Shown piece by piece: positions 56,703-58,894 of a DNA stretch of 64,000 bases. Location of the stretch: positions 1,612,001 through 1,676,000 of the forward strand of contig NZ_CP147918.1 of the NCBI RefSeq assembly GCF_039645975.1, read 5' to 3'. Below the pieces are notes generated by a model. That model made no database searches. It worked only from the letters and a program-made list of their open reading frames with translations, and was not told the origin of the DNA. Numbering within the stretch: the first letter of the stretch is position 1; the number at the start of each line of letters is the position of its first letter. Origin of the DNA: Sulfurimonas sp. HSL-1716 (lineage in GTDB: Bacteria; Campylobacterota; Campylobacteria; Campylobacterales; Sulfurimonadaceae). Both the position numbers and the translations under genes were made by a program.

Positions 56703-57154
56703 TACGTTTTTTACAAGCTTTGTTAACAGGTGTTTTCTTTACGTTTATCTATGATTTTTTTATCTTTTTGGGAATCTTTCAAAACTATATAAAAAAATAT
56801 GATATAGACCTTTATTACAACATCCTTTTTGCAGACCATCAAAACTTTTTCATATTTGCTTTATTTACGCTTATGCTCGGCGCGGTAATAGTCTACTTAG
56901 ACAATATAAAAGTATCTATTATTATAATTTCGACACTGTTTGTTTTATCGCTTTTGCCGCTTGTACCTTCGATCGGCGAAGAGACAGCCAAAACACTGCT
57001 GATGCAAAAAAATACGACCCTGCATGTGGGAAAATATACCTACAGCGGAGATCTTTATTATAACGGCAGAAAAGAGGTTTATTTTTTTGATAAAGAGTTG
57101 AACAAGATATTGAGATTCAAAAAGGAAGATATAAAAGATGAAGCATATAAATAG
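56699..57154 (+). CDS. Orphan membrane protein
   Basis: A 151-residue protein with three hydrophobic helices (about 6-28, 50-68 and 73-92), followed by a basic soluble C-terminal segment with a YSGDLYYNGRKEVYFFDKE beta-like stretch. No named family recognised. It overlaps the Sua5-like gene by 4 bases and the lipoprotein gene by 17, so it belongs to the same transcript. Confidence 0.7.
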   Translation: MIRFLQALLTGVFFTFIYDFFIFLGIFQNYIKKYDIDLYYNILFADHQNFFIFALFTLMLGAVIVYLDNIKVSIIIISTLFVLSLLPLVPSIGEETAKTLLMQKNTTLHVGKYTYSGDLYYNGRKEVYFFDKELNKILRFKKEDIKDEAYK

Positions 57155-57713
57155 TCTGGCAAAAGGCGTCGCACTGGGAAGTGCGGGAATTGTCTTGATG
57201 AGCGTTCTGGGAGGCTGTTCTCAAGAACAACAACAGCAAAAAAATAAATTTTTAGTCATCGAACAGCTCACAAACGGTAAATACGTAGTAGTCGAAGAGA
57301 TACCAACAGATGGTCCCAGCCGTGCCATCATCCGTGAAAAAGATGCAAACGGCAACGTGACCGAGCGTATTATGAGCGAAGCCGAAATGAAAACCCTTGC
57401 CCAACAGGAATACGACAAATTTCAACACGGAGGCTCCGAGCTGAACCAAAACAACGGCGGCGAAGGGATGGGACTCGCAGGTACTATTCTCGCAGTCGCC
57501 GCAGGAAGTCTGCTGGGAAATATGATCGGTAATGCGCTTTTAAACAACTCGAATTTTCTAAACAAAGCAAACAGCGTAAATCGTTCTGCTTATCACCGTT
57601 CAGCAGGAGCATACAGTCCGAACAAAAGCGGTTCTAGCGCAAAAAAAAGCTTTTTTGGATCTAGCAGCAGCGGAAGCTCAAAAAAATATTCCGGCGGATT
57701 TTTCGGAGGTTGA
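57138..57713 (+). CDS. UPF0323-family lipoprotein with Gly-Gly C terminus
   Basis: A 191-residue lipoprotein with the signal peptide ending MSVLGGC (Cys27). A short Gln-rich stretch is followed by a beta region containing KYVVVEEIPTDGPSRAIIRE, a Gly/Ala hydrophobic segment around 110-135 and a Ser/Gly/Lys tail ending SGGFFGG. The family is known from Helicobacter and Campylobacter. The tail and neighbouring ATP-grasp gene recall the YgiB (DUF1190) / YgiC pair of E. coli. The protein may be the substrate of that ligase (inference). Confidence 0.85.
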   Translation: MKHINSLAKGVALGSAGIVLMSVLGGCSQEQQQQKNKFLVIEQLTNGKYVVVEEIPTDGPSRAIIREKDANGNVTERIMSEAEMKTLAQQEYDKFQHGGSELNQNNGGEGMGLAGTILAVAAGSLLGNMIGNALLNNSNFLNKANSVNRSAYHRSAGAYSPNKSGSSAKKSFFGSSSSGSSKKYSGGFFGG

Positions 57714-57715
57714 AA

Positions 57716-58894
57716 ATGGTAACGCTAAGAGATATAAAACCCCTTGACGACAAATCGCTCGAAGAGATCGGATTTACCTGGCATACAGACAGCGACGGAA
57801 GCAAATATATCGCCGACAAACTTGTAGAGATTACGCATGAAGAAGCCGAAGCTTACTATGAAGCGGTCAATGAACTCTACGATATGTACGCAGAAGCTGC
57901 CGAGTTTGTCATAGACAATGATCTGTTCTTTGAACTCGGAATCCCGTTTAACTTGATAGAGATGATAAAAAAAAGCTGGGAAAATGATGTTCACTGGCAT
58001 GTTTATGGGAGATTCGATCTTGCAGGAGGAGTAGGAGGAGATCCGATAAAGCTCATAGAGTTCAACGCGGACACGCCGACATCACTCTTTGAAACCGCCG
58101 TACTTCAATGGGCGCTCTTAAAATACAACGATATGAACGAGAATGAGCAGTTCAACAACGTTTACGACGCAGTGCGCGAGAATTTCCGCCGTCTGATAAC
58201 GCTCTTTGACGATCCAGAGAAGTTTGACGAGCTTTACGACGGATGGAAGATACTTTTCTCATCGGTAGAAGGCAACACCGAAGAGGAGGTCACGACCAGA
58301 CTTCTTCAGCAGATCGCGACCGACGCGGGATTTGCTACGGCTTTTGAGTTCATCCAAAACGTAAGATTTGGCGATGAGGAGATATGCGACGCCAACGACA
58401 ATCCTTATGAATACTGGTTTAAACTCTATCCGTTTGAAGATATAGCCCATGATGAGCCGGAGCTTGCCACGATGCTCACAAACATCATGCAAAACCAAAA
58501 GGCGATTCTTTTGAATCCGCCTTATACCCTGCTCTTTCAATCAAAAGGGATGATGAAGATACTCTGTGATCTTTTTCCCGATTCACCTTATCTGCTTCGC
58601 ACCTCTTTTGAACCGCTTGACGTAAAGTGTGTGGAAAAACCTGTGTTCGGACGTGAAGGAGCGAATACGAAGATACTCTCAAAAACCGGCGAAGTGCTAA
58701 AAGCCAACGACGGTCCCTACGGCAACTATAAAAAGGTATATCAGGAATACGTCGAGTTTAGCAAAGACGTCCACGGCAACAAATATCAAGCGGGAGTGTT
58801 TTTCGCATATGAAGCATGCGGTCTGGGATACAGACGCGGCGGCGATATTTTGGACAATATGAGCAAATTCGTGGGACATGTACTGGTCGGCTGA
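57716..58894 (+). CDS. Glutathionylspermidine-synthase-like ATP-grasp ligase
   Basis: A 392-residue C-N ligase of the GSP-synthase (YgiC/YjfC) family. It lacks the N-terminal amidase domain of E. coli Gss. Typical segments are HVYGRFDLAGG, KLIEFNADTPTSLFETA near residue 120, and the C-terminal PVFGREGANTKIL ATP-binding stretch. Full Gss joins glutathione to spermidine; the short members have unknown substrates. I start at ATG 57716, 7 bases after GGAGG, rather than the TTG two codons earlier. It overlaps the thioredoxin-like gene by 1 base. Confidence 0.87.
   Translation: MVTLRDIKPLDDKSLEEIGFTWHTDSDGSKYIADKLVEITHEEAEAYYEAVNELYDMYAEAAEFVIDNDLFFELGIPFNLIEMIKKSWENDVHWHVYGRFDLAGGVGGDPIKLIEFNADTPTSLFETAVLQWALLKYNDMNENEQFNNVYDAVRENFRRLITLFDDPEKFDELYDGWKILFSSVEGNTEEEVTTRLLQQIATDAGFATAFEFIQNVRFGDEEICDANDNPYEYWFKLYPFEDIAHDEPELATMLTNIMQNQKAILLNPPYTLLFQSKGMMKILCDLFPDSPYLLRTSFEPLDVKCVEKPVFGREGANTKILSKTGEVLKANDGPYGNYKKVYQEYVEFSKDVHGNKYQAGVFFAYEACGLGYRRGGDILDNMSKFVGHVLVG

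Follow-up and report, generated by a model that had tools for sequence, protein, structure and literature searches.

A candidate enzyme-substrate pair of a YgiC/YjfC-type ATP-grasp ligase and a lipoprotein with a C-terminal tag in Sulfurimonas sp. HSL-1716

A gene for a lipoprotein that ends in Gly-Gly is followed directly by a gene for an ATP-grasp ligase in Sulfurimonas sp. HSL-1716, and this arrangement raises the question of whether the lipoprotein is the substrate of the ligase. The window, meaning the whole stretch of DNA analysed (64,000 nucleotides; NZ_CP147918.1, positions 1,612,001 to 1,676,000), is part of a complete 2.26-Mb genome.

Lipoprotein and ligase of the window

The features of the locus, in window coordinates, are as follows:

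57138..57713, + strand: UPF0323-type lipoprotein, putative ligase substrate, 191 aa (open reading frame, sequence; NF003146 E 7.6e-47, below the curated cut-off)
57138..57218, + strand: signal peptide with lipobox-like LGGC, Cys27 (sequence; motif judged by eye)
57642..57659, + strand: tag core KKSFFG, residues 169-174 of the lipoprotein (core pattern)
57699..57710, + strand: C-terminal FFGG, putative attachment carboxylate (sequence; G, S or A at the end in 120/121 relatives)
57705..57710, + strand: GGAGGT, the last two Gly codons and a Shine-Dalgarno reading for the ligase (sequence)
57716..58894 (open frame from TTG 57710), + strand: stand-alone GSP_synth ATP-grasp ligase (open reading frame, Pfam, structure model)
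58064..58084, + strand: NADTPTS substrate loop in the ligase, replacing NADSASC of glutathionylspermidine synthetase

A sequence-only reading of this DNA had described an ATP-grasp ligase coupled to a lipoprotein ending in FFGG. Both open reading frames were recovered as described, and the ligase matches the Pfam family GSP_synth (PF03738) with an E-value of 8e-119 (397 bits, positions 3-370 of 371). The lipoprotein gene (57138-57713) and the open frame of the ligase (57710-58894) overlap. The ligase probably starts at ATG 57716 rather than at TTG 57710, since GGA GGT (57705-57710), which sits 5 nt 5' of this ATG, reads as a Shine-Dalgarno sequence. The genes 5' of the pair are presumably carB, a Sua5/YciO-like gene and a gene for a small membrane protein. 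A thioredoxin-like protein with thioredoxin-type Pfam matches is encoded 3' of the pair, beside what we take to be VWA-type proteins.

The C-terminus of the lipoprotein is ...KKSFFGSSSSGSSKKYSGGFFGG, in which KKSFFG is followed by 17 residues up to the final FFGG. The lipoprotein matches NF003146/PRK04081 of NCBIfam, which we take to be UPF0323, with 159 bits against a curated cut-off of 194 bits, a value that was reached in 0 of the 41 genomes of the family to which the window belongs. No Pfam family, DUF1190 (PF06693) included, was matched by the lipoprotein, and nothing was found with it in a PDB sequence search.

No amidase domain was detected in the ligase by Pfam, PF03738 being its only domain, which agrees with the earlier claim that the synthetase domain stands alone without the hydrolase. 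It is the single PF03738 gene of its genome. The closest solved structures by sequence are E. coli YgiC (E 5e-38) and YjfC (E 1e-34), to which the ligase is 29-31% identical. Its AlphaFold model (pLDDT 87) gives TM-scores of 0.85 with YjfC (7uk6), 0.83 with YgiC (7uk8) and approximately 0.79 with glutathionylspermidine synthetase. Residues R101, D103, E117 and N119, which are invariant in 34 ligases, correspond to R316, D318, E330 and N332 of E. coli Gss when counted along an alignment of the ligase with the solved structures; the Gss residues are presumably catalytic. The Gss stretch S335-A-S337-C338, which we take to be the glutathione-contacting loop and used as a hallmark of glutathionylspermidine synthetases, is T-P-T-S in the window ligase, the same as in YgiC and YjfC. 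With its stand-alone GSP_synth domain, nearest fold, NADTPTS loop and core residues, the ligase appears closest to the YgiC/YjfC type and is a putative peptide-spermidine ligase. The product name of E. coli YgiC and YjfC in RefSeq is peptide--spermidine ligase, a naming that reportedly stems from Pederick 2023, and the earlier remark that no substrate has been shown is thus dated for the homologues. In the available text of one paper YgiC and YjfC are termed peptidylpolyamine synthetases, and in that of another YgiC is described as being without glutathionylspermidine activity.

Joint occurrence and a bipartite C-terminal tag

Both genes were found in 210 of 230 genomes of the phylum, which by gene content is taken to be Campylobacterota, and neither in the other 20; one gene alone was found in none. 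Among 200 genomes of the phylum, the ligase was detected in 182 and the lipoprotein in 183, and the two lists differ at G086 alone. This genome was rejected as a case of a lipoprotein without a ligase, the match being a spurious one of 22 bits to a protein without a signal peptide. In the window's own family (41 genomes) the lipoprotein is present in 39, and the remaining two are also without the ligase. Genomes without the pair are spread over several families and genera, and some fellow members carry both genes; read from taxon distribution rather than from a tree, the joint absences look like repeated joint losses.

The phylum set of 131 loci provided 130 lipoproteins, 121 of them distinct; the remaining locus is that of a ligase whose genome carries the lipoprotein gene elsewhere. 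Judged from these sequences, the conserved feature is a bipartite C-terminal tag, in which a core of the type basic-small-Gly-aromatic-Gly is followed by a spacer rich in Ser and Gly, and the chain closes with a tiny residue (G, S or A). The last residue of the 121 distinct relatives is G in 64, S in 48, A in 8 and F in one, so that 120 end in G, S or A. Taken as pairs, the endings are GG (64), GS (35), NS (7), IS (6), NA (4), GA (4) and FF (1), and the groups ending in NS, NA or IS are presumably Helicobacter-like by sequence. Gly-Gly as the conserved element was therefore rejected, as only 64 of the 121 relatives end in it. The sequence-only reading had named the exposed C-terminal glycine as an obvious candidate acceptor; the constraint on the C-terminus holds, but what is kept is the tiny last residue together with the core, not Gly-Gly itself.

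The fixed core pattern is present in 111 of the 121 relatives, and the other ten have variants by eye, such as KKSFFS, RSGFY and RGGFF. Clustering at 60% identity gave 15 clusters, the representatives of which all end in G, S or A (61% of the spacer consists of these residues) and all have Gly at position -2, compared with 14% Gly in the spacer. The tails are of low complexity. In the relative ending in FF (L047), a frame break occurs at a T-run and the adjoining frame ends in SSGFFGG; the break is either a sequencing error or phase variation. A second tagged protein was sought in the window's genome with a single narrow core pattern, a few very short open reading frames with chance endings being disregarded. 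Among the 17 matches the lipoprotein alone is plausible, and it is the sole match in a gene-sized open reading frame with a signal peptide that lies close to the protein's end and is followed there by a small final residue.

Ligase relatives outside the phylum were collected by scanning genome contigs with the ligase alignment, and the best 80 of 582 confirmed relatives were taken. Based on record titles, these 80 loci belong to Pseudomonadota, Actinomycetota, Planctomycetota, Bacteroidota, Acidobacteriota, Verrucomicrobiota and others. A small open reading frame with a GF/GL-type core near its C-terminus is present in 79 of these best 80 of 582 loci and absent from one (L121). The partners were chosen by motif, and the control is therefore the background rate rather than the raw 79/80: a core with a small end is found in 72 of the 79 partners compared with 19 of 3063 other open reading frames (60 aa or longer) from these loci. 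Second tagged proteins account for two of the 19; at their loci (L117 and L179), two unlike tagged proteins stand in tandem ahead of one ligase. Among the partners from these 80 loci, 75 are encoded on the ligase strand, and the other four lie roughly 2.5 kb away on the opposite strand. The commonest core is RGGFG (47), of the [R/K]GGFG type, and the tail beyond the core is mostly 7-13 residues long. The 79 partners end in G (38), S (35), E (3), T, L or M. The partners of L131, L156 and L178 end in GE rather than G or S, reminiscent of Pup, which ends in a terminal Glu.

Apart from the core, little is kept in an alignment of 77 of these 79 partners, two overlong open reading frames being omitted. 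Matches to DUF1190 were found in 20 of the 77, and two others each have one chance-level Pfam match. A lipobox-like pattern is present in 48 of the 79; in the remaining partners the N-terminus appears to be a membrane segment, or the start codon was set too early. Profile comparison of UPF0323 with these partners by hhalign gave no significant homology (probability 46, in the lipobox region only), and the isolated tags gave a probability of 0.2. Shared ancestry of UPF0323 with the other tagged proteins is thus unsupported, and the likeness of KSGFFG to RGGFG appears to be one of pattern and position alone.

Plasmid and phage loci (23) were hand-picked for diversity from the ligase matches, and 21 of them contain a tagged neighbour. 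Looser cores (KGIG, KGFG, SGFG and SGMG) occur in Bacillota and Cyanobacteriota among these loci. The two ligases without a tagged neighbour, those of A. brasilense (L102) and phage DSS3_VP1 (L228), possibly have other substrates. A search of viral contigs with the Bacillus ligase gave nothing that could be confirmed. In phage Motura, genes for a homospermidine synthase, a tagged lipoprotein and the ligase lie side by side. A multi-pass membrane protein resembling DUF350 is encoded two genes further in the same phage.

Proposed reaction and alternative explanations

From what was observed (the pairing of the two genes and their occurrence or absence together, the conserved tag, the family of the enzyme and its kept core residues), we favour, with a probability of about 0.7, an enzyme-substrate pair in which the ligase would read the tag and join the C-terminal carboxylate of the lipoprotein to spermidine before export. 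The tag core (KKSFFG here, RGGFG elsewhere), borne on a flexible tail, would dock on the ligase, and the alpha-carboxylate of the tiny last residue, mostly 7-20 residues past the core, would enter the active site. With ATP the ligase would form an acyl phosphate of the C-terminus, which would be transferred to an amine, most likely spermidine, to give a polycationic C-terminal amide with a possible role in the envelope. Ligation at the C-terminus is suggested by the tiny end residue, the narrow range of core distances and the adjoining enzyme, relatives of which join a Gly carboxylate to spermidine. The ligase looks cytoplasmic and the mature substrate is predicted to be elsewhere. Modification would be expected in the cytoplasm, ahead of export and lipidation of the lipoprotein, because the ligase is ATP-dependent and has no export signal.

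Least secure in this proposal is the identity of the amine. The polyamine gene nspC is present in 199 of 200 genomes of the phylum, ligase-free ones included, and covariation of the pair with polyamine synthesis is therefore uninformative. The conserved tag is itself silent on the amine, which might instead be homospermidine or a different polyamine, or else a lipid amine or a peptidoglycan precursor that would anchor the lipoprotein. A homospermidine synthase gene adjoins the phage Motura pair, and among the 146 scanned, the genes most often found nearby are those for DUF350 membrane proteins (24); PspA (3), spermidine synthase (2) and the saccharopine-dehydrogenase type (2) also occur. Polyamine genes nevertheless recur in the vicinity and the homologues are named peptide-spermidine ligases, and an amine other than spermidine is considered unlikely. 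According to the available text of PMC11237479, an association of ligases of this kind with DUF350, polyamine genes and lipoproteins of the DUF1190 family is already in the literature.

Other readings dispense with ligation of the tail. The ligase could make a free peptidyl-polyamine metabolite, as the small-molecule enzymes of its family (Gss and trypanothione synthetase) would suggest, and the lipoprotein would then be a sensor or regulator with a tail that binds but stays unmodified. This is rather improbable, as conservation is highest at the extreme C-terminus, as for a substrate carboxylate, and the tag is constant while the partner bodies are highly variable. The Ser/Gly/Arg-rich composition would also fit a low-complexity signal for envelope binding or sorting, independent of the ligase. 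The joint presence and absence across 230 genomes and the excess of core plus small end over background in the best 80 of 582 loci make such a signal very improbable. Least probable is an origin of the terminal Gly-Gly in translation initiation, with the two residues arising only because the overlapping ligase gene has its Shine-Dalgarno sequence there. GGAGGT does encode Gly-Gly ahead of ATG 57716, and a Shine-Dalgarno-like end occurs in 31 of 107 linked copies compared with 1 of 14 unlinked ones. However, all 14 copies without a ligase directly downstream keep the tag ending (GG, GS or GA, in varied codons); the small end is kept in 47 of 52 cases with gene gaps of at least 20 nt and in 4 of 4 on the opposite strand among the best 80 of 582 loci; and the upstream core is left unaccounted for. 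Unlinked and distant copies thus largely refute the Shine-Dalgarno sequence as the sole cause, although it may impose a local preference for GGA GGN codons.

The enzyme-substrate reading may extend further. We give even odds to a general C-terminal protein-conjugation system across many bacterial phyla and phages, in which a bipartite tail ([R/K]GGFG or KSGFFG, spacer and tiny end) would mark unlike envelope proteins for polyamine addition by one ATP-grasp ligase family, as a prokaryotic counterpart of SUMO-spermidine. No description of the tag was found in a literature search whose scope lay outside the central YgiC/YjfC papers. If true, the proposal would provide a physiological substrate for a widespread enzyme family apparently known by its activity on peptides, and a sequence signal for finding such substrates. 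It would also make sense of a lipoprotein that Campylobacter and Helicobacter relatives have conserved, and the attachment of polyamines to the C-termini of exported proteins would represent a novel type of envelope modification.

Comparison with known systems

The pair Cj0371-Cj0372 of Campylobacter jejuni resembles that of the window, Cj0371 being presumably a UPF0323 protein. A proteome table of H. mustelae lists Cj0372 under GSP_synth, and Cj0371 has been reported as a chemotaxis inhibitor. The two papers on Cj0371 contain no mention of cj0372. Binding of Cj0371 to CheV, a cytoplasmic protein, has been published, which is at odds with a lipoprotein located in the periplasm. A Cj0371-GFP fusion was used for localisation, and C-terminal fusions of this kind would block the proposed attachment site.

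In eukaryotes, the C-terminal diglycine of SUMO is joined to spermidine with ATP; according to the available text of PMC12270671, E1/E2 enzymes are used and the spermidine adduct amounts to +127.15 Da; the likeness to the window pair is one of analogy only. Gss and trypanothione synthetase share the ATP-grasp synthetase fold and core residues with the window ligase, which differs from Gss in having no amidase domain and in the replacement of the SASC loop by TPTS.

The nearest systems are YgiC/YgiB and YjfC/YjfM of E. coli. The parallel to YgiB-YgiC drawn in the sequence-only reading is upheld by the ligase, which is nearest to YgiC and YjfC, and by the tails of YgiB (TRGGFG...SMGG) and YjfM (SRGGYG...HWGG). 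The window lipoprotein differs from these in having no detectable DUF1190 homology, and the genes directly adjoining the window pair encode neither DUF350 nor PspA by Pfam, in contrast to the YgiC/YjfC loci. In all three pairs, a stand-alone GSP_synth ligase is encoded adjacent to a lipoprotein with an aromatic-Gly core and a terminal Gly-Gly.
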